A stretch of 64,000 bases of DNA from assembly GCA_000310025.1 (NCBI GenBank), contig FN648619.1, forward strand, positions 344,069 through 408,068. Direction: 5' to 3'. Origin of the DNA: Ectocarpus siliculosus (taxonomy: Eukaryota > Sar > Phaeophyceae > Ectocarpales > Ectocarpaceae). The position numbers and the translations under genes are program-made. Positions 6,648-34,612 of this stretch are shown one piece after another (position 1 is the first letter of the stretch; every line of letters begins with the position of its first letter). The notes under the pieces are model-generated. The model did no database searches and had not been told where the DNA came from. It worked only from the letters and a program-made list of their open reading frames with translations.

Positions 6648-8484
6648 CTGGGCGCGAGGCTAAAAGGCAGACCGACAAGTTCACGCGAATCAGTTTTCTC
6701 TCTCACCCCCAATCCTGGCCTCCGTTGGTCCTGCCCGAGTTAACGAGAGGATCTCTATCAATGATGCCTTTCCTTGGGAAGTCGGTGGCGTGCACGCTCT
6801 CCCTTGCTGATCTGCCGCCCCGTGTGCTGCTTGGTGCTGCCTGTGCCGTGGGTCTCTGATGGTCGCGTCCCCCTCTCTCTGTCTCTGTCCCCCGCTCTCT
6901 CGCTTCATAAAACTTTTTTTTTTCACAACCTAGAATTCACAACGATATTTTTTGGGGGGAGGGGATAGGGAGTAATCATCCCCGATCCCCTATTAGTTGA
7001 ATACTGTGGCTATTGAAATCTGCCGGCTCCGAACCTTGCCTTGCCGAACCTGCTTTTTGAAGCATTCAAAGACCTGCGCCCCGGGGCAAAAAACGCGCCA
7101 ACTTGAAGGTGAGCTGGCCGTAGCTTCACATAACCTGTGCTAGGCAAGACCTGTGTTCTCTTCGAAGCGCGGCGGTAGGCCATACTGCTGCAGCTGCTGT
7201 TGTTGTTGACCCTGGTGTGGCGGTTGTCTTGTTGATGCTGTTCCTTGGTTTGGCCCTCTCTGTCTTCGTAGGTTACAGGAGGGAGTAACTGCTGGAATAG
7301 AGCAGTTATGTCGTCAACCTTTGTGCACTTCAAGAACCAACCTATACACCCGGGGCGCTCTCTCCTCTACGTGTTCTCTCGTCAGCTGCGACCACCACTG
7401 CCGGTGCTGGCCTAGTCTCCTCTTGAGAGACGGAGACGAAGTAGCACTTGGCCGATCACGCAGGGAACTTGCCCATGTCTTCAGACACATGTCTCCCCGC
7501 ACCCACTTACACCAGTGCAAATACCAGCAATTTAACCGCTGCTGCATGTGCGGCTGCTTCTCGATGGTTGGCAACAACCGAACGGGGTTGCTCTAATCGC
7601 GTGCGACAAAACGCATGTTCTTGTTCTGACCAGTCGTCTGTCGACTACTACTGTTAGCGGCAAATCACCGAGCGGGGATGACGTGGTACGTAGGGGCGGT
7701 GCGGGGAAACCCCCCCCCCCACTAGGAAAGTTCAGCCACAACGAGTTTACAGCGTCCATCCAGCACTCCGTCCGCGCTTGGGTAGACTACTTTATACGTT
7801 CGCCATATTCTCTTTGCATTTGACACACTAGTCGTCGCCAACGTGGGCGGACAACCACGGGTTGGTCGCCACCTTCCATCCCGCCAACGGCAATTTTACT
7901 GCCCATCAAGATGTCAAAAATAGAGTCGGCGACGTGTTCCTGCTGTGCCACAGAAAAAAAACAAGAAGTTTCCTTGCACACACCTACAGCAACAGTGTAA
8001 GAGAGCCCCCCCCCCTCAGGGCATGTGCCCTACAAGTATCTATGCTTAGCCGGTGGGAGTTAGTTCAATGAAATTGCTTCCACTGCTGTTGTAGGCGATG
8101 TTGTTCCGGCGAGCGTCACGGCTTTCTTTGTCTTCAATGCATAAACCAGACCAATAAATATGCACCTGCAAGCAAGTTTTTTTTGCTTGTATGCTTTCAC
8201 AGAGTATCTCCGACGATTAGCCGCTACTATTCATGTTGTTTCAGAACGTCCCCCCCCGTTGAGAAGAACGTCGAATCGGGCCAATGCTCAATTCCTGATT
8301 TGGCGTCGAAGGAGATATCGTCGTTAGATCTCTTGTACTTCGTATGAAATAGGTTCTTGTTACTGTGGGCTGTCGCATCCTGCTTCGCTACTCCGTTCTC
8401 CGTATGCATAGGTATACCAAGTTACGTACATTTTTCTGTTTCTTGCCTTGCTGAGAAAAATGGCCGAAGAAAATACAACCGGGG

Positions 8485-8660
8485 AGTACGGTGTGGCGAA
8501 CACCGATTGGCGAAGCAATTGAACCGAAAGTCTGGTGTGGCGAACACTGATTGGGTGGGATCATTCAACACCGAAAAGTGTGGTACGGCGAGCACTGGTG
8601 CATACGGGAGTCAATGGCCCGAAAGTTTGGTGTGGCCAACACTGATTGGGGGAGGATGTC
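8485..8660. repeat. Imperfect tandem repeat
   Basis: Units of roughly 45-70 bp share GTGTGGCGAACACYGATTGG and CCGAAAGT. Cores lie near 8491, 8535, 8580 and 8628. It is not coding by inspection. Confidence 0.6.
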
Positions 8661-10516
8661 GTCCCCCTGGAGCTCCTGACTCCCTCCTCGTGGCGGACCC
8701 ATGCCCCAACCACCCCAGCTTCATCCGCGCTGGGTGCGACTCCAACGGAAGCTTAGCTCATATCATGTGATAGGCAGCACTTGCGGAGGATTGGTAATGT
8801 TGCTTTCGACACACTCCCGCAGCTACCGGGGTGTCGGTCGCTCCTGGCACGTTTCTTCTGCTTTGGCTATCCCAGACTGAGCTGCGTGTCTGTATTACAG
8901 CCCTGTTTTCTTGTTATTCGTGTAACGTTTGAGCCTCGTTTTTTCTGAACGTGTTTTTTTCTTGACCTGCGGGCCCGCACTGGATGTTGTCGTTGATGTT
9001 GTTGTTGTTATTGTCGTTGTTGTTGTCGTTGTTGTCCTCACATTGAAAACCGTTCCGATCTTTCTATCGTACGTCCAAAAAGTCAAACGAAAGACTCTAT
9101 ATGCATACCACCAGTGATTTTTTTAGGGCACAAGTGGCAAGACTTTGGGAGGTTTACCCATGTAGAAAATGCCTCAAGACCCCGACCAAGACTCGCTTGG
9201 TGAGTGTTACAATCTCTTCGGCGGGCTGGACAAACGGGGCGGCACATCCTGCAGGGAGGGTCCGTTTAGACCCACCGTCCAGTGGAAAAGTTATATCCCA
9301 TGGAATTGTGGGCTCCCTCCACAACGTACGACTACCGTTCGGATCCCTGCCGCTCAAGTCCCGAAACATTTGCTTAAAACACCAAGATTGAAGTTTACGG
9401 ACCGATGGCGTGGTCGGTGACTCCTTGCCTGTTGGCTGCGAGTGCGAACAACTTTTTTTTTTGGGGGGGGGGCGTGTTGACATCACCAACGAAAGCAGCG
9501 CGCAGCAGGTGTCGCAAGCCAGAGATGTGCTGGTTTTCCGCGCAAATCGCTTCGTTCAAGGCTGTAGCGCTGATTGGCTCGCGCTACCCCGCTCTTTTTG
9601 ACGCCGACCGCGAGGCTGGAGAGAAAGCCGTGCCTATGCTGAGCGCGCTGTGTCCACTCGACGAGGTCTATTTACCGTCTGTTAGTTACTCTTTGGTCGA
9701 TCCGGACGTCTGACCTACATGGGTTCCCCACATGGGAGTGTCACACACCGTGGCCGATCCAACCCAACCCTACCCAACCCAACCCCAACCCTCACCCACG
9801 GCCAACGCACGGCCTAGCGACCGAGAACTGGGCTCAAACGCGGCTGCGCCGCGTTGTCGGTATGCGGAATGGGGAGAGGGCGCTGGAGAGGAATCAACCG
9901 CCCGAACCAACGCTCGACCAATCGGAGGGCGTAAAAAGCCCATAGATGGGCCTAACCCTAGCAGACCAGTCAATAACTGATTTCAATGCACCATCGGGGG
10001 GGGGCGTTCTGGCGTTCTTTGGCGGCATAAAATCGCCAATCCCATACCCTCCCTGCCCCCATGAATTTGCTCCACGGCACCCCTCACCAGCTTGAAACGC
10101 GTGAGCTCCCCCTTCCCTTCCCTCATTTCTTGACCCTTTGTAGTCCAGACGCTTCCACCTGTTGGGCTTACGTTTTCGAGTGAGCAATGCTTCCAAGCCC
10201 ACGGGGTTGCTCGATGTTTTTCACGGCGCGAATGTTGTTGCGGATCTCGCCCACACGCAGCCGCGGTGCGACCTATTGCAGCCGATTTCGAACCATTTGG
10301 TCAAGTTTTGATATCGGCGTGTAATAAAGCTTGTTCGCGGGTTCGTTCGAGACCCATGTTGTGACGCTCGGGGTGTGTTTTTTTTTTTTTCTTCTCTGAG
10401 AGCCCTTTTTCAATTGTCGACGACGCTGAGCTTGCGTCCCCCGCTCGCATCACGCGACGCAGGTATTTTTTTTACTCCTCAGATACCGCCAAGCGAGAGG
10501 GGAGAGGAAGGCGACG

Positions 10517-13249
10517 ATGGCGAAACACGTCAACGAGGACTCCGTGGCTATCAGAGGGCTGTCAGAAGAAGACGTCGCCGACCTTAAGGAAGCTTTCGAC
10601 AACTTCGATCGGAATGGGGTGCGTGCGGACGCGCGTAGGTACCTGTCCGTCTGCCTGTCCTTCTTCCTCTCGTTGCAATCTGCTGTGACCCCCCCCCCCC
10701 CCCTCCCCCGCAGGTGATGTGAGAGCCTGGTCCGGTGAGAACCCGGCGTGCTCCGTCCCGACTTTGTAGGGATGCGAGGTCAATGGTCTAACGACGACGG
10801 CATGCACGGCTATGAGTACAACCCCCCCTCGCCCGCAGTTCGAACTGATGTGGAAAAGCAGATTATGCTCCGAGTGTGATCACCCACGAAGCGATGCGTG
10901 GCGAGCCTGTTGTGTGCAAGCGCCCAAAGATCAAATTCTCCTTGTAGCACTTGAGCCATCGTCGTGCCTGCCCACCGTGAAACGTTTGGTTAGCCGGGAT
11001 GCACGATTAACCCATGGCATATCTGGTTGGCAGAGCAAACACGAGGATGATGACACTGTCAGCTTCTGGTTCATCGTTTACAAACGTAGCCTTGGCAGGC
11101 GAAAACCTGGCACACCGCTCCGTCCCGGCATTGTATAGAGGAGGTCCATGGTCCAACGACCACGGCAAGCATTAGCATTTACATTAATTAGTACACCACC
11201 ACACCCCCCGCAGCTTCCGTCAAATTCGGGACGATTGGACGGAACGGGATATGCTTTGGAAATGTGTTTGGATTGTTTCTTGTGTTGGGGTAGCGGTAAA
11301 CGACAACAGCAGTATCAACAACAACAACAGCAACAACAACAACAACGACTCGCAACAACAACGACAGCAGCAGCAACAACAGCAACAATGATAACAACAA
11401 CAACGACAGCAGCAGCAACAACAGCAACAATGATAACAAGAACAACGACAGCAGCAACAACAACATAACGACAGGGCCAAGCGTTCCTCGGACGGTACAA
11501 ATTGCAAAATACAGGCTCTGCTGTTGTTTCCTGTGATAGTACGGCCATCGCGGAGCGTGCCGTGCCGTGCGTGCTCTCATGGCCACGGAACTGAAGGAGC
11601 ATGGCTGACAACCCTTGCACCCCCCCCTTCCGCAATTTTTCCGTGGAATTGGAAAATGACCCCTGGAAAAATGTTTTTCGACAGGACGGAACCATTGACT
11701 CGGTTGAGCTGGCGACGGTGCTACGTTCTCTAGGCTACTCGCCGACAAAGGATCAGCTGAAGAAGCTCATGGACAAGGTACCAATTTCGTGTGGCGCTTG
11801 ACAGAAAATATGTCCCAGAGTGTGAGGGAGGGTGAAAGGTATTCCATGTCCATAAGCACGGCAGTTTTTTTGCATGGTGTTGCGGATTCGTATTGCATGT
11901 ACGTATGAAGAGAGTGGAAATTGTTTTTTGGGAAGGATGCCCCTGTCAGGAGTCTTCCCCCCGTACACGAGAACGGCAACTCGACGAGGCTCCACACGAC
12001 AGGGTATGTTTTCCGGAGCTAAGAACGGTCCACCCAGGTTTTTCTAGACAAGCAAACATGCCGGATACAGTATGGTATTGGCTAAGATGGGGCTAGTTTT
12101 AGGGTTCGCGTGCCCCTCCCGGGTCTGGTTTGTTTGTTTGTCCTGAAGGTGGATTTGGGCAGCACAAATTGTTCATTCAAGTTTTCTTCCTTTTCGTTTT
12201 CGTGCGTGCAGGGCGTAAATATGTACCAACCGCTTCCGGATTTGTTTTTTTTTCGTTCAAGGTAGATTTGGACGGCACAAATTGTTCATTCAGTTTTTAG
12301 CTTTTTGCTTTTCGTGCATGCAGGGCGTAAATATGCACCAACCGCTTCCGGATTTGTTTGTTTGGTTCGAGGTGGATTTGGACGGTACAAATTGTTCGTT
12401 CAATTTTTAGTTTTTTAGTTTTCGTGCGTGCAGGGCGTAAATAATATGCACCGACCGCTTCCAGATTTGTTTGTTGTGTTCCAAAAGGTGGATCTGGACG
12501 GCACTGGAGACATTTCATTCGAGGAGTTCGTGGTGCTGATGAGAGTGGGGGGCATGGAGACGGACTACGAGAAGGAGATCAACGGAGCTTTCTCCTTCTT
12601 CGACAAGAACGGCGACGGGCAGGTATTGGTTACAACGTATGCAGGGAGAGGGTTTACCGCGGTTTGCGCGTACCAACACAACGCAAGCGCAAGGTAGATT
12701 CGAATCCGGTTCGCGACCGCCAGGTGGCGATTGCGGTACAACACAGTACGACTGCAATGTGTGTGTTGTTTTCTGTTTTGGCTAGTTTTTAGTTCCTGTT
12801 TTTGGGACGCGATAGTGCAAGTTCAACACGGTTTTCCTGCCAGGCTGTTCGTTCTCTCCTCCGTGTTTTGACGCCCGCCACCGAGTTTCCTACGCCGACC
12901 ATTCCTCACCGACCATGGTCACATGGGGCGATGCATTCGCTGAAGACTTCATCCAGAACGCGCTTTGAGAACCCACAGTTGGGGGATAAGTTCGGTGCGC
13001 GCATATGCGTAGCAGCAACAGCAAGATTCTCGATCGTGCCCATGAAGGTTTGGGCCATTAGTCGGCGTTGTCCGTGAAAATACATTCTCGAACTCGACCT
13101 GGTACTGTACCTCTTGGTTCTTTCCTACGCTTTTTAAGGCAACGAGACCTTTGTTTCTGTCTCTCTTGTCTCTATCTCTGTCTCTGTCTCTCCTCTGCTT
13201 TTCTGTCTTTCGGCCTCTCTCGAATTATCCCCCTCTCTCCTTCTCTCTC

Positions 13250-13317
<68 letters not shown>

Positions 13318-15190
13318 CGTTCTCCCTCCCTCCCTCTCTTCCTCTCTTCCTCTTGTTCTCTCTATCTCTTGTCTGTTTGCCCGCCTTTTTTTTTTTTCTC
13401 CAGGTAGATCGACAAGAACTGGCGGAGATCGCGCGCGCGCTCGGGGACTCGCTGACCGACGCAGAGATCTACCTCCTCATCAACGCCGCCCACAAGGACA
13501 GAGACGCCACAATCTCCATGAAAGAGTGAGTCCCCGCGGATTGGACACAAGGGGGGCCCGCGAAACCGCCCTCCNNNNNNNNNNNNNNNNNNNNNNNNNN
13601 NNNNNNNNNNNNNNNNNNNNNNNNNNNNNNNNNNNNNNNNNNNNNNNNNNNNNNNNNNNNNNNNNNNNNNNNNNNNNNNNNNNNNNNNNNNNNNNNNNNN
13701 NNNNNNNNNNNNNNNNNNNNNNNNNNNNNNNNNNNNNNNNNNNNNNNNNNNNNNNNNNNNNNNNNNNNNNNNNNNNNNNNNNNNNNNNNNNNNNNNNNNN
13801 NNNNNNNNNNNNNNNNNNNNNNNNNNNNNNNNNNNNNNNNNNNNNNNNNNNNNNNNNNNNNNNNNNNNNNNNNNNNNNNNNNNNNNNNNNNNNNNNNNNN
13901 NNNNNNNNNNNNNNNGGGAAGGGGGGGGGAGGGGGGGGGGCGTATCATGTCCCCGGAGTCCCCGCAGATGATTATCTGGTGCCGAGTACCCCAAACGAAG
14001 ATCGCGTCTCTCGCGAAAGATAGAGCGGGGGATGAATCGAAGCGCCGGCAATATAGCCCTCACGGTCGCACCACCCTGCGCTCATACCTTTTCAACAGCA
14101 ACAAACGGACACACCTACCCCTTTGTGACGTACTGCAGCGGTGGCATTAACTTCACACTAAGCTACTGTCTCGGTGATGTGTGTTGTGTAGCAGGAAAGG
14201 GTTCGGGCTCGACGTCTCGCAGTTGACATGACGTACCACACCCCCTATTTAGACCGATTTTTCAAAGCTCGATTTCTCCACAGCAGAAAGAGTGGCGGTG
14301 ACGAAAAAGGCGGCGTTGGGACGCGTCTCGTCGAGAGAGAGCTTTTCCGAGACGCAACGTTTCATTTCATTTGTGCATCTTCTTCGCCGTGGAGGTACAA
14401 TAGTAGTCCGGCTTTGAAAGTCGGCCCAGGTTGTGTGGCATCTTGTGCCACCTGCGTTCGAAGACTGGTTTCCAAATTGGTAAAGTAGATGTTTCTTTTT
14501 GGTTCGTTTGAGGTTAGCCGGGCTGTCCGAGTCAAAACATGGCCAGCTGTGTGAGCTGAGCTGTGTGAGAAACGTCACAGCGAAGCTGTGAGTCGGTCCT
14601 GCTGCCTGCTTTTCGTTTTCATCTTGCACCGCCCCTCGACGACATTACCCCGAGCTCTCATGAGCCAGCCTGCTCGGGAGGGATCACCACTTTTATGGAG
14701 AGAAGTTCGGCCAGCCAGCACGTTCACCTGCTACCGGGGAGTGCGCGGGGCAGCAAAATTTTTCAACGCTCGCCGTCCCCGGGTTTTCCCCCTCTCCAGG
14801 GGTTGCGCGGAGCACGTAGACTCTCTCGAACCGGCATTCCAGATAGAAATAGGTCGGGTCTGAGTGATAGTTTGTAATGTACCGCCGTATTTTTTTTTAC
14901 CGGAATGGGGGTTGTCCTGGTTTGTGTGGTAAGCCGGATTCTTGGCGGAGGCGTACAAGGAAAAAGGCTGGCCGTCGCCCTTGCGCGAAAAATGTGGCCC
15001 TACAAATAGTCGTGCAACGGGACCAAAAAACGAGAGTCAACGCTGACTGACGTCGCTTCCGCGTAGATTGGTTTCTTCTCCTCACCCACCCCCCTTTTGC
15101 GGTGTGTTTTTTTGCAATTTTTTTTCGCCCCTTCCGCCTTCCGCCAGGTTTGTCACCTTCATGTTCGACGAAAAAGCAGTCCAGAAGTGA
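10517..15190 (+). CDS. Centrin/calmodulin-like EF-hand protein, complete, 5 exons
   Basis: This is a 164-aa calcium-binding protein of centrin-like length. Exons are 10517-10618, 11685-11777, 12488-12622, 13404-13525 and 15148-15190, all GT-AG and in phase. The four EF-hand loops read DRNGDGTIDSVE (spliced across intron 1), DLDGTGDISFEE, DKNGDGQVDRQE (spliced across intron 3) and HKDRDATISMKE. The first three have canonical D at position 1 and E at 12. The fourth starts with His and probably does not bind calcium. The last exon completes EFVTFMFDEKAVQK and a TGA at 15188. Exon 4 could instead be read to a TGA at 13527, but that overlaps a consensus GTGAGT donor and would cut EF4 before its closing Phe. 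Such proteins act as calcium sensors at centrosomes, basal bodies or the cytoskeleton. A 341-bp N gap lies in intron 4. Whether it is a true centrin or a calmodulin-like relative is unresolved. Confidence 0.88.
11296..11466. repeat. CAA/CAG trinucleotide minisatellite
   Basis: CAA and CAG runs are organised in a higher-order unit of about 39-42 bp (GACAGCAGCAGCAACAACAG followed by CAATGATAACAA), inside intron 1 of the EF-hand gene. Confidence 0.8.
12140..12500 (+). repeat. Intronic tandem repeat of the EF-hand exon 3 acceptor and start
   Basis: Four units about 109-117 bp apart carry AAGGTGGATYTGGACGGYAC, which is the acceptor AG plus the start of exon 3. Copies lie near 12147, 12260, 12369 and 12486. 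Only the last opens into the EF2 coding sequence; the others run into CAAATTGTTCATTCA. Each unit also contains GCAGGGCGTAAATATG and ACCGCTTCC. Confidence 0.85.
13252..13312. repeat. (CT)n microsatellite
   Basis: About thirty CT units, part of a longer pyrimidine tract leading into the acceptor at 13403. It may act as an extended polypyrimidine tract. Confidence 0.95.
13575..13915. other. Assembly gap of 341 N
   Basis: Unsequenced bases within intron 4 of the EF-hand gene, followed by a G-rich run. The flanking exons splice in phase, so no coding exon need be missing. Confidence 0.99.
14226..14452. mobile_element. MITE-like element, copy 2
   Basis: It starts near GTACCACACCCCC and ends with GGCATCTTGTGCCAC. 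The internal GGCGGCGTTGGGACG and TCTCGTCGAGAG are the reverse complement of the core of copies 1 and 4, so it is inserted in the opposite orientation. It lies in intron 4 of the EF-hand gene. Confidence 0.7.
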
Positions 15191-16100
15191 TTCTGGTGAA
15201 GGCAGCGTCAGCGCGAAAAGAATGAACCCGGAAAGGGCGAGAGTGTTCGGTCGGGGTATCTCGATCTTCCCGCGACCATGCATGGCAAGGGGGGAACCAA
15301 AGCAAGCCTGCAGAGCCGACCGTTTTCTGCATCGATTTTTTTTTGTGTCTTTCTGCATAAGTAGTCAATTGAGGGGAGGGGGGAGTGCGGTGCTTCTGCG
15401 GCGGTAGTGTCTTGACTGTGATCGCTGAGGACACCGCTGCTGGGTGTCGCTCTTGTTGTAGATAAACTTTTTACAGTACCATCACGACTTGACTTATACG
15501 GCGCTGCTGTTGTTGATTTGCACGTTGGGGCGTCAGTCTACGCATGGCAACCTGCAGCCGTAGTAGACACAGGGCAACCAAGGAGCCCGTGTGCCATCCG
15601 TAGCAATAGTACATATTTTGTCGTGCCCCGGGAATTGTAGCAAGGCGGAAGTTGGGAGACGGATGCTTTCCGATGGAACCGCTGAGGGTATGTTGTAATG
15701 CTGCAAGGATTTCGACATTTTTACGGGGCACGGTTTCGAGTCTTGTCGATCTGTCGGCACAGCAGACACAGTTCGTGTGGACGGAACAGCGCTAGCAGTT
15801 TGTAGATCGATAGATTGCGGGCCAAGCTCTCCTCGCGCATGTCTTGTGTCTTCCTTCCTTTTAATGTGGGTCTTGTAGACGTTGGCGGCCTACTTTGCTT
15901 TCTAGCACCTACTTTGCTTTCTAACACATTCGCTCGCGGCACTGGGTGTGAGCGAGGGGAGCATGGATGGGTACGCCAGGGCACCATTTTTCCTGAGGTA
16001 CAGTAGCGCTTTAATGTGTACACGCGCGTTTCGTTTGTTTTCGGTGGAGGCCAAGAGACCAATATATATATTTTCCAAGGTTATTGTAGATTAAGTGACG

Positions 16101-16306: not shown

Positions 16307-17417
16307 AACGGTATGCTTGCTTGCCGGCACCGCACGGGTTTCGTTTCCCTTGCTTGGTACAGTACAGTCACCGTGACGGTGCTTTTGTGGCCGTTGAAAG
16401 GTTGACGTGATGTGCAGACTTATAGATGCTGGGGCGGTAAGGAAAGTAAGGTTTAGTTAACCCGCGGAGGCATGTCGCATTGCCTTCGTTCTGCACGGGA
16501 ATACGTCAAGGGCGAGAGAGAGCGTGGGTACTCTGACGTTTTGGTGGAGCATTGGCTTTTGAGATTTGTGCGCGGCGTGCGTGCGCCCAATGTGGGGGGA
16601 AGGTGCCGAGGGGAAGACAAAAAAACAAGCGTAGAGGTCGTTTCTCTTCGCACGGTAATATAATTTTATTGTTTTGGGATGTGGAGCGAGGTGTCTGATT
16701 TTGGGAGAGGCAGGGGTAAACCGGGAAGTTTTGGATTTTTCCATGTGCTGGAATGATACGTAGCGCTCTACAATATTGCGGTGTCATGTACGAAACACTA
16801 TTTTAGGTGATCATGAGCTTGAGCACGCCGGGAAAGTTTTTTTGGGTGTGTTTGCGGTTCAGACGCTGCTGGAGCACCACTTCCGGCAAGAACATTCGGT
16901 GTGCGTGCGTGCTTGATGCACAAAGATGTGTGTGGTGGGGGCGCGATGTACAAGCCTGTGAGGCTCGAGATGCTCGTCTCTCGGACGTACAGCAGTCGTG
17001 TGTCGAACAAGCAATAAGTGTGGCCGTCTCCAATAAATTCCGCCGCCTTTCGTACGATTCGCAGCAACGCGGCAGGGTGGAAAGGACAGGTCCGTCGAAG
17101 GAAGTGGACGAAAATATGTACCTTTAATTTTTGAAAGTACCTACGAGTGCCATGGCGTTGCCAACGTAGGGCACGGTGTAGAAAAGCTGATTTACCGGAC
17201 ACCTTGCTTCGCATCGCCACTTTCATTTTTTGCCTGTTTTTGTTGTCGCTTTAAATCGGGGTTGCGTGGAGGCGGCGGCTACAGAGCTCCGCTCGCAGAC
17301 AAACGCGCCGACTGATCCCGCAAGACGAAGGGCAAAACGCTACCTGCGTTGTATTTTACGACTAATCTGGTCCCCTTCTTGGCTACGGGGTCCATGCGTG
17401 CTTCTCGACTCCATCAG

Positions 17418-17750
17418 CAGATCCGTGCTTTACACCCACAGGCATGCCGTCCTGCACAGAACTTGCCATCTACTTGTAGCAAAACGATAACCTCATCATT
17501 GACAGATCCGTGATGTACACCCACAGGCATGCCGTCCTGCACAAGACTGGCCATCTACTCGTACCCACTCTATGACCTAATCATTGACAGATCCGTGATT
17601 TACACCCACAGGCATGCCGTCCTCCACAGGACTGGCCATCTGCTCGTACCAACACGATGACCTAATCATTAATGTATCCGTGCTTTACACCCACACGCAT
17701 GCCGGCCTGCACAGGACTTGCCATATACTTTTAGCAAAACGATAGCCTCA
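17418..17750. repeat. Four-copy 85-bp tandem repeat
   Basis: Units start at about 17418, 17503, 17588 and 17672. Each carries ATCCGTG followed by TTACACCCACAGGCATGCCG and then GGCCATCTACT. The copies differ by scattered substitutions, so the array is not freshly made. Confidence 0.88.
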
Positions 17751-18528
17751 CCCGTCTCCACCCATTTGTGGGAGACATTCGAAAAGGAGAGGCGCTTGCT
17801 GAGCCACGCGAGCAGGGTGTTTAGGTGTCATGGTGCGGAGCCTGGAGCAAAAAAATGAAGGAGCCCTCTATAGACTAGGACCTAGGTTTCGGATGGCACG
17901 TGACTGCGGCGCTCCGCTTCTATATGGTTGCACACGACGCCACGGAAAATGACATGACGGCGGCCGGGTCGTAGAGCTCGTCATGCGATCTCAACGGCGT
18001 AAACCGAGCACCTCCACGGCGACCAGTCCTCGTGGCGCCTACATTGTGATTCAACAAATCTCACCTCCCTAGTAGTTCGTATCGACAAAATCAAAGTCAT
18101 TCTGTGGCCCAAACAAGAGTAAGAAATACCCTCTACCCCGCCTGGCTTCGGAGGGGTGCAGAGGGACGTCTGCCCAAGGGGGGTCAACCCTCCGAAGGAA
18201 CTCCGGTTCCCTCACGCGTAACAGTTGCTCCTCGTACAGAACCGGCCCTCACTTAAGAAACGCGGTAGTTGAGGACGTGAGCCTCAAAATTCCCAAGAGA
18301 GGAGAACTTGGCCTAAAAGAACATGTACTCAGCCAAGAAGCCTACACAAACACCAATATCGTCAGTCCAACCAAGGCCAACATAGTCGCCGTGGGGGTAC
18401 AGTCCACCCCGTAGACAAAGTAAGAAACGAGCCTCGGCAAAAATCAGAGGTTCGTGAGCGCGGGCCCTACGCAATCAATCGTCGTGTGTCACGGCAACGG
18501 TGAGGTGTAGGCACCAACGTTGGGGGTG

Positions 18529-20476
18529 CTAGAGGGCTTCTTCCAAAGCCTTGAAGAGGGGCTCGACGTAGTAGTCCGGTCGCGGGATGTACGTTGGGTC
18601 CTAGTGGTGCCGGGAAATCGAGTGAGTGAAGAGGGGGGGGGGGAGCGAGAGACAGACAGGCAGAGGGACAGAGAGACAGGCAGACAGAGAGGGCGAGAAC
18701 ATTCAGAAGGTACAGAGGCGGAGAGAGAGAGAGACCGAGAGAGAGTGAGAGAGAGAGAGAGAGAGGGAAAGAGAGAGTGTGGACAGACGCAACCGCGCGT
18801 GGTTCTAGGTGATCGGGAACGACGGTTCACAGTATTGGGACGGCAAGTTCGCCGTCGTCACTGGTCCGATCATGGCCTCTACCATCGCCTGTGAAAAAAA
18901 AAATGGCGTCAAAGACCGCTGCGAAACATTAACATTTGGCTTGGGACTTTGATAGACAGACCAACCTGGGCCTCGTAAGCTTCCTTGAGCGCCTGCATCG
19001 GCACGAGCTTGACGTCTTCGACCTCGCTGGGCGAAAACTTTAGGTCTTGCACTGGTCCGTCGTGCCGAAGCAGGTAGATGTCCTGCAAGGGCACAAAAGA
19101 GAAAGGGGGAGAGAGAGATAGATGAAGAGAGGGGGAAGGACACAGAGGGAGGAAAGGAGAGAGGACGAGAGAGAGGGAGAGAGAGAGAGGGGGGGAGGGA
19201 GGGAGGGAGGGCGAGAGAGAGAAATATCAACTAATTCAGCAACAACAGATCCAAGTGGACCGTGGCGACGTGCTAGGCCGCGCCCCACACCCCTGGAAAC
19301 CACAACCCTGACTCTTACAGAGCATTCTCCCGCACTCCTGTCGATCAGTCTGTAATAATATCACCGCGCGTTGTCGTTGTAGTCCACAAGCAGCCTTAAC
19401 CTTGACGGGGAAACCTTGACTACAACCTGAGACGGGGAAACCTTGACGAGGAAACCTTGCCATAACACATCAACGTCTCCATGCACCAGGCGCCGCCCTC
19501 TTGCGAGATTGGTGGACGGGGGGTCACTGCCGCGGCCAAGAAAAAAGCTTAGAACACTCCACGCTTACGGAACGCCACAATGTCGGAAAGTAACCTCCAC
19601 CCCTGCTGTCGACACCAGCAACGAGCACGGTACGCGAAGGAATCTACTACATACTACCGTCGGCGACAACAGCTACCACATCCCCTGGACTGACTTTCAG
19701 TCACGCCACCACGAAGAGGATAATGTACGACATCAAACGATACGTTAAACGGAAAGCTCTCAACGAGACGGTTCCAACGCCGCCATTTTCGGCACCGCCA
19801 TCCTCTGGAGAAAAACCGAGCTCCGAAAATCGGTACGGGGGGTGTGATATGTCTTGTGTCACCTATGGCACTACTGGACGCGTGCAGCACGCGGCGTGTT
19901 TCTTAAGCCCGCGGATCCGCAAGTACCGACTCGTGCAGCACGCGGTAAATGTTTCTACGCCGGCGGATCCGCAAGTACTGACTCGTGCAGCATGCGGCAT
20001 GTTTCTTCAGCCGGCAGGCACACAAGGAACAACCACTTCGGGGGCATGATTCCCTCACGGCGGCCTCTGGCTCGCCCGAGCGCGCACCTTGTACTCGTTG
20101 CAGACGAAGTCGCCGTGCATGTCGGTGCTCCCCTTGGCTGTGGTGGCCACCGTGCACACGAAGCGCAGGCTGCTCTCGTCGCAGCTCAAGCCCAGCTCCT
20201 CGTCGGTCTCCTTGATGGCCGTCTCCAGGCTCTCTTCCCCTGCCGTGAAGTGCCCGCCCACGCTAACGTCCCACATCCCCGGAAACGTATCTATTGTAGA
20301 GTTTGTTTCGATCGAAGAAAGAACGTGTCGGGCTGAGTAAGGTGAGCATCGGTAGGGGATTGGATTGCAGCAAGCTTCCAGGCATGATTGGAAAACGAGT
20401 TGGATATGCAACGGAGAGAGAGAGGGAGAGAAGGAGAGAGGGAGAGAGGGAGAGAGAGACTAAGAGAGACAGAGAG

Positions 20477-32908: not shown

Positions 32909-34612
32909 TCACTCCACGGTCGATTGGTCTCCTCGCGCGATATGTTGGGCACGCCCCCCGGTCGTAAGTGATTCAAGAGACTCTGGCCACGCAACTCCAT
33001 CCGCAGACTGGTAAATGAGTACCCCAACGACAGCTGCCGCAAGGAGGCCGGCCACATGACATCCGCGATGGGCTGGTTGAAGCTCGTGTTGAAGCTTGAG
33101 CCAAATACAGAAGTTCAAGGGACACCTGCCACGTGACATCCGCGATGGGTTGGTTGAACATGCCCCGGAAGGACAGTTGCTGCAGGGAGACCGGCCAAGC
33201 GACTCCAACGATGGGCTGGTTGAATTTCGTCCCGAACGATAGCTGTTGCAGGGAGGCAGGCCACACGACCTCGGCGATGGGCTGGTTAAATTCAGACCCA
33301 CCTTGCGGCGCAAATGATAGCTGCTGCAGCGAGGCCGGCCAAACAACCCCGGCGATGGGTTGATTGAATGTGCCCCCGAAGGACAGTTGCTGCAGGGAGA
33401 CCGGCCAAGCGACTCCAACAATGGGCTGGTTGAGAATCGTCCCGAACGATAGCTGTTGCAGGGAGGCAGGCCACACGACCTCGGCGATGGGCTGGTTGAA
33501 TTCAGACCCACGCGAACCAAGCGATAGCTGCTGCAGCGAGGCCGGCCAGACGACCTCGGCGATGGGTTGATTGAATTGGGGCCCGAACCATAGCAGCTTC
33601 AAGGAGACCGGCCACACGACTTCTTCGATGGGTTTGTTGAAGATTCCCACCAAATACTATGCTTCAAGCGAGGACGGCCAAACGGCTCCAACAATGGGCT
33701 GGTCGAATTTCCAGTCCAACGATAGCTGTTGCAGTGAGGCTGGCCATACGACCTCGGCGATGGGCTGATTAAAACTGCGGCCAAACCTTAGCTTCTGGAG
33801 GGATGCCGGCCACACAACTTCGGCGATCGGTTGGTTGAACTTCGCTGCGAACGATAGCTGTTGCAGGGAGACAGGCCACACGACCTCGTCGATGGGCTGG
33901 TTATACTGTAGTACCACCCAAACCATAGCCCCTGCAGTGAGGCTGGCCAAACGACACCAGCGATGGGTTGGTTGAATTTTCACCCGAACGATAGCTGCTG
34001 CAGCGAGGCTGGCCAAACGACGTCGGCGATAGGCTGGTTGAATTCCTTCCCGAACGATAGCTGTGGCAGGGAGGCCGGCCATACGACCTCGGCGATGGGC
34101 TGGTTGAATTTTCACCCGAACGATAGCTGCTGCAACGAGGTCGGCCACACTGCTCCAACGATGGGCTGGTTGAATTGCATCCCGAATGAAAGCTGTTGCA
34201 CGGAAGCCGGCCACACGACTTCTTCGATGGGCTGCTTAAAGGAGTACCCGAACGACAGCTGCCGTAGGGAGGCCGGCCACGTGACATCCGCGATGGGTTG
34301 GTTGAAGGTTGGGCCAAAGACCAGAATTTCGAGGGAGGCAGGCCACGTGACACCAGCGATGGGCTGGTTGAAACCACCTTCAGTCCCAGAGGTGTAATGT
34401 TCGATTTCGTCGAACCGTATCTCTTTCAGGGACTTGGGCCATAAGATGCCGTCCGTGGGTTGATTGAAGTACTTGCCAAAAGTCAGCTTTTGCAGGGACT
34501 CCGGCAGCTTGACTTCGGAGATGGGTTGTTCAACCTCACCCGGATAGCTGGCACCCAGGGTCATATCTGGAACAGAGCCTGTTGCGCGGGACGAAGAAGA
34601 CAAGCGATGCAA
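32909..34612 (-). pseudogene. FNIP-type repeat protein, about 23 repeats, disrupted
   Basis: The minus strand encodes 22-24-residue repeats of the form FNQPIAEVVWPASLQQLSFG, matching FNIP repeats, which are leucine-rich-repeat-like solenoids known from Dictyostelium and some protists and giant viruses. The first in-frame Met is at 34612 (MHRLSSSSRATG). The array cannot be read in one frame. TGA codons sit after LSFG in two repeats (about 34112 and 33981). A frameshift lies near 33905, a TAG after SLEA near 33655, and further frame changes near 33090 and 33010. Between lesions every repeat is well preserved, which suggests either recent loss or rapid repeat turnover. Some repeats carry longer loops (SRGSE, APQGGSE, DEIEHYTSGTEGG). 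Function is unknown; such solenoids usually bind proteins. Confidence 0.7.

Follow-up and report, generated by a model that had tools for sequence, protein, structure and literature searches.

A tandem array of the intron 2–exon 3 boundary in a calmodulin-like EF-hand gene of Ectocarpus siliculosus

Intron 2 of a calmodulin-like EF-hand gene of the brown alga Ectocarpus siliculosus contains three decayed tandem copies of its own 3′ end and of the adjoining start of exon 3. The gene lies on the plus strand at 10517–15190 of the window, the 64,000-nucleotide stretch of contig FN648619.1 (positions 344,069 to 408,068) analysed here. The array probably arose by tandem duplication over the 3′ intron-exon boundary, followed by minisatellite-like expansion and decay of the copies; we put the probability of this origin at roughly 0.88. 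We propose that about 112 bp, comprising the pyrimidine tract and AG of intron 2 plus the opening 17 nt, or perhaps about 33 nt, of exon 3, were duplicated in tandem and would then have expanded to three extra units in the manner of a minisatellite. At the 3′ end, selection would have kept the coding original, whereas the upstream copies, being intronic, would decay. The spliceosome most likely takes the last acceptor, the sole one that leaves the protein open, and the array would be removed with the intron. We infer both the order of duplication and expansion and the skipping of the copies by splicing. The array is most likely a neutral leftover.

The gene is composed of five exons (10517–10618, 11685–11777, 12488–12622, 13404–13525 and 15148–15190), the limits of which were inferred from the reading frame and GT/AG, and which join into an open frame of 164 amino acids. 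The product contains EF-hand pairs (Pfam EF-hand_7, E 5.6e-30), and the solved structures most closely related to it are those of calmodulins (a calmodulin fusion at E 4.7e-42, calmodulin itself at 1.5e-34). Intron 2 (11778–12487) is 710 nt long and in phase 0, with LMDK encoded before it and VDLDG after it. The array makes up 339 of these 710 nt, in agreement with the suggestion of an earlier, sequence-only reading that it marks intron growth.

Tandem Repeats Finder (TRF) reports a tandem repeat at 12146–12504 with a period of 110, 3.2 copies and a score of 469. Unit 1 (12149–12261, 113 bp) begins with a copy of the exon 3 head at 12149–12165 that is identical at 14 of 17 positions. The corresponding copies in unit 2 (12262–12371, 110 bp; head at 12262–12278) and unit 3 (12372–12487, 116 bp; head at 12372–12388) are each identical at 15 of 17, and unit 3 ends at the true acceptor. 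The first 17 nt of exon 3 (12488–12504) are both the coding original and the last, partial copy of the repeat. All units lie on the plus strand. Each repeats a pyrimidine tract, the AG/GT junction (the slash marks the splice boundary) and 17 nt of exon 3 encoding VDLDGT, followed by sequence unrelated to exon 3. AG/GT is retained in all three copies as well as at the true junction; the last intron bases are 12148, 12261, 12371 and, at the true junction, 12487, which gives spacings of 113, 110 and 116. Every unit also contains an internal GCAG/GGC followed by GTAA, with the AG at 12211, 12323 and 12433. The units are identical to one another at 98/109, 97/109 and 97/110 aligned positions, gaps excluded, or 86–87% according to BLAST.

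The repeat score and the head matches bear out the sequence-only reading, which had described three decayed copies of the acceptor and exon 3 start. Of the AG positions it gave, 12148 and 12261 are exact and 12370 is off by one; the copied exon stretch, put at about 18 nt, measures 17 nt. It recognized the motif copies of about 20 nt but missed that the whole 110–116 bp is repeated. It had also asked whether the resemblance to exon 3 exceeds that of random sequence, and it does: the three heads match at 14, 15 and 15 of 17 positions, as compared to 11 at the next best place in the intron and to best matches of 9 to 13 in 500 dinucleotide-shuffled versions of the intron. Since the intronic matches lie beyond all 500 shuffles, chance is excluded. 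The exon head VDLDGT aligns without gaps to VDADGN of calmodulin and thus encodes a conserved EF-hand loop. The copying therefore ran from the exon into the intron, and the exon is the source.

The limits of the duplicated segment are less sharply drawn. A possible partial copy of the unit tail on the plus strand at 12111–12148, the 3′ end of which is the first AG, was equalled by 2 of 300 shuffles in a test of 12040–12145 and by 17 of 300 in one that covered the entire upstream intron. A full extra unit at 12036–12148 was considered and rejected, as it matches the three units at 68/98, 69/99 and 72/95 aligned positions, and unrelated exon sequence does equally well (69/99, 67/100 and 65/95). 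Upstream of unit 1, the sequence is thus suggestive of a tail copy alone. On the exon side, resemblance to exon 3 beyond nucleotide 17 is weak: a TTCATTC is held in common, 3 nt out of register, and 239 of 20,000 shuffles were as good. Derivation of the spacer from exon 3 was rejected, since shuffled sequence gave gapped local alignments as good in 45 (unit 1), 111 (unit 2) and 293 (unit 3) of 1000 cases.

It is unlikely that the copies work as alternative acceptors, giving either a ladder of truncated or unproductive messages that adjusts calcium sensor levels or, from unit 1, a short additional exon in frame. Retention of AG/GT in three of three copies speaks for such a role, as do pyrimidine tracts that are at least as rich in the copies as at the true acceptor: by simple count, the copies have 14, 16 and 13 pyrimidines of 20, and the true acceptor (AAAAG) has 13. 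Furthermore, a 66-nt stretch of unit 1 (12149–12214) can be read through in frame, from the acceptor AG of the unit to a GGC/GTAAAT. Units 2 and 3, in contrast, contain stops, and their cassettes are 65 nt long. Joined to the true donor, the copy acceptors would lengthen exon 3 by 339, 226 or 116 nt, and each leads to a stop: copy 1 keeps the frame and reaches a stop after 38 codons, whereas with copies 2 and 3 the frame is shifted and the stop comes after 12. The copied heads carry no extra conservation either, with 4 of 17 variable columns as compared to 24 of 93 in the rest of the unit (Fisher p = 1, although 17 columns give little power). Heads that are as variable as the rest of the unit offer no sign of constraint, and the nearest paralogue of the gene manages without an array. 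Productive use of the copies as alternative acceptors, a use that the sequence-only reading had raised as a possibility, is thus unsupported by the sequence. We regard as similarly doubtful that the array is an intermediate of exon or intron gain, in which unit 1 would serve as a rare in-frame cassette exon of 22 codons, spliced at the acceptor that it inherited and at GTAAAT as donor, or the acceptors would form a ladder tuning calcium sensor output.

The paralogues indicate the relative ages of the intron and the array. In the nearest paralogue (contig C481), an intron of 863 nt interrupts the coding sequence at the same junction, likewise in phase 0 (MAK/VDTD). No copy of the exon head was found in this intron, the best place matching at 11 of 17 positions as compared to 9–13 in 500 shuffles, and the sole hit of our array detector in the C481 stretch, at a lag of 108, is coding EF-hand sequence. 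In another paralogue (C16), residues 14–93 are uninterrupted. Because the C481 paralogue has an array-free intron at the same junction, intron 2 is older than the array. The array, as judged from these sequences, appears to have lengthened intron 2 by about 339 nt and not to have created it. Were the array older than the split of the EF-hand paralogues and subsequently lost in C481, its age would have to be far beyond what a divergence of 10% suggests. It is accordingly very improbable that intron 2 was itself born from duplication of an AGGT-bearing exon stretch, as in the Rogers model, in which the intron is absent before the duplication. That model would account for the AG/GT at every unit boundary, but the C481 paralogue has an intron of the same junction and phase without the array, and part of each unit resembles intron sequence and has no match in exon 3.

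Equally hard to sustain is the insertion and multiplication, in intron 2, of a dispersed or introner-like element that resembles exon 3 by chance. Such elements do enter the EF-hand gene, as intron 1 holds a dispersed repeat. However, in searches of the assembly (189 Mb, 492 contigs), in which very common words are skipped so that uniqueness is not absolute, both the array and a single unit match this locus only, even at E up to 10. Introners, by comparison, have similar copies across many introns of a genome. The last copy of the array moreover continues in register into the exon. An assembly artefact has a negligible probability: although there is a single assembly and a run of N lies 1.1 kb downstream (13575–13915), the units differ in length and at about one in ten positions, differences that would not be expected from stacking one sequence.

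Several points weigh against the proposed boundary duplication. By pyrimidine count, the true acceptor does not stand out from the copies in strength, and its use was deduced from the reading frame alone. There is no full first unit at the left edge of the array, so the left breakpoint is not fixed, and the exon-side breakpoint is ambiguous between nucleotide 17 and about 33. The comparison of the heads with the rest of the unit, with its 17 columns, has little power. By our own arithmetic, a duplication of about 112 bp placed at random in the gene (8 boundaries in 4,674 bp) would overlap a boundary about once in five. No special mechanism is therefore needed, provided that selection tolerates the overlap.

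A second array in the window mirrors that of the EF-hand gene on the donor side. It belongs to a SIN3 gene on the minus strand, where the exon end (1295–1312) and the donor-side array together span 778–1312; the PAH exon is at 1331–1417 and the donor follows 1295. Copies of the last 18 nt of the exon, each with GT, end at 1192, 1092, 990 and 867 and match at 14, 13, 13 and 12 of 18 positions, the next best place reaching 10; the parallel drawn in the sequence-only reading is thus real. In 500 simple shuffles, the best place matched at 9 to 14 of 18, with at least 13 in 8 shuffles and at least 12 in 66. Single SIN3 copies are thus reachable by chance. Four copies spaced at 100–123 bp, each followed by GT and lying within longer repeats, are not plausibly due to chance. 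Searched at E up to 1, the SIN3 array matches nothing else in the assembly. In the window as a whole, nine diverged tandem clusters were detected, two of which overlap known exon ends.

Further boundary arrays were sought in kinase and kinesin genes, of which we surveyed 30 stretches totalling 37,384 nt. The stretches were hand-picked where matches lay close to one another and are not a random sample; 20 were taken from the kinase stretches noted and 10 from the 39 kinesin stretches listed. The matches end at domain limits, which do not coincide exactly with splice sites. There are 42 gaps between matches; the 36 with a frame change or a stop were counted as introns, and the 6 open ones were dropped. 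No boundary array was found in the 36 introns of this small, hand-picked sample; by the rule of three, their frequency would be at most about 8%. The array detector recovers both controls, the EF-hand and SIN3 arrays. Two repeats with a lag of 29 bp (L100, 266–300; L103, 323–359) both lie inside introns.

Other repeats occur in and around the EF-hand gene. The dispersed repeat of intron 1 (10735–10850) is about 100 bp long; among the best 40 of 514 candidate places in the assembly that were scored, the 39 others are 91–97% alike. Visual inspection shows a diverged second copy at about 11100–11216 and a relative in the intron of the C481 paralogue. A column consensus of the dispersed loci was confused by mixed strands and was not used. 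Intron 3 contains a long CT-rich repeat (13156–13374) that ends about 30 nt upstream of the exon 4 acceptor. An Rfam search of 9400–15500 and a tRNA search of the whole window gave no match. Diverged tandem arrays are also found at 8480–8657, 17410–17756, 19874–20018 and 33022–34375 in the window, with spacings of about 47, 85, 52 and 66/198 bp, respectively. Across the whole assembly, EsV_1_7_cys repeats are very numerous (150 of 880 candidates were scored), and many are 114 bp apart in long open frames, for example in contigs C30, C45 and C191. This family is linked with brown algae, and its abundance agrees with a brown algal source.

The anatomy of the EF-hand array resembles that of the amphioxus ‘mirages’ described for BflGb6, BflGb9 and Adh3, which are minisatellite-like tandem copies of an intron-exon boundary on the acceptor or donor side (PMC3087553). 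The BflGb6 units are given there as 150–160 bp long and 81–100% alike, and AG/GT is retained in many mirage copies. A related report describes 60- and 108-bp repeats at splice sites of amphioxus PGBD5 and names troponin C as a further case (PMC3902484). The EF-hand array shares with these systems tandem units built of intron sequence, a splice junction and adjoining exon sequence, as well as the retained AG/GT; these are two of four mirage features, established from the sequence of one algal assembly. The other two are undisturbed regular splicing, on which the reading-frame argument bears, and differences in length between alleles; in this assembly the locus occurs at one place. The mirages differ in that they belong to genes of cephalochordates; their copy number varies between haplotypes, and some were examined by reverse transcription PCR (RT-PCR) (PMC3087553). 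In potato RdRp, an intron is reported to have been gained through a tandem genomic duplication crossing the intron 1–exon 2 boundary (PMC4974935). Both there and here a duplication spans an intron-exon boundary and the copy inherits acceptor signals, but the potato duplication gave a new spliced intron with RNA-seq support, whereas EF-hand intron 2 holds three decayed extra copies. Human variable internal tandem repeats likewise lie at exon-intron boundaries, where they are described as able to supply splice sites and to form new introns; unlike the EF-hand array, they have units of 30 bp on average, lie in recent segmental duplications and have transcript support (PMC2812944). Among the titles listed by literature searches, in which closed-access papers were outside the scope, none dealt with boundary arrays in brown algae. 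Judged by its sequence, the array would thus be of the already known mirage type, in a lineage that is new as far as these searches show.

Boundary-crossing tandem duplication, known from lancelets, is thus indicated in a stramenopile alga too, with the EF-hand gene affected at an acceptor and its neighbour SIN3 at a donor. Arrays of this kind offer a natural test of which of several near-identical acceptors the spliceosome selects, and they supply material from which new exons and introns can arise by duplication. Should the array after all be a gain intermediate or an acceptor ladder, the two polarities of boundary array seen in the EF-hand and SIN3 genes would be a source of new exons and introns for brown algae.
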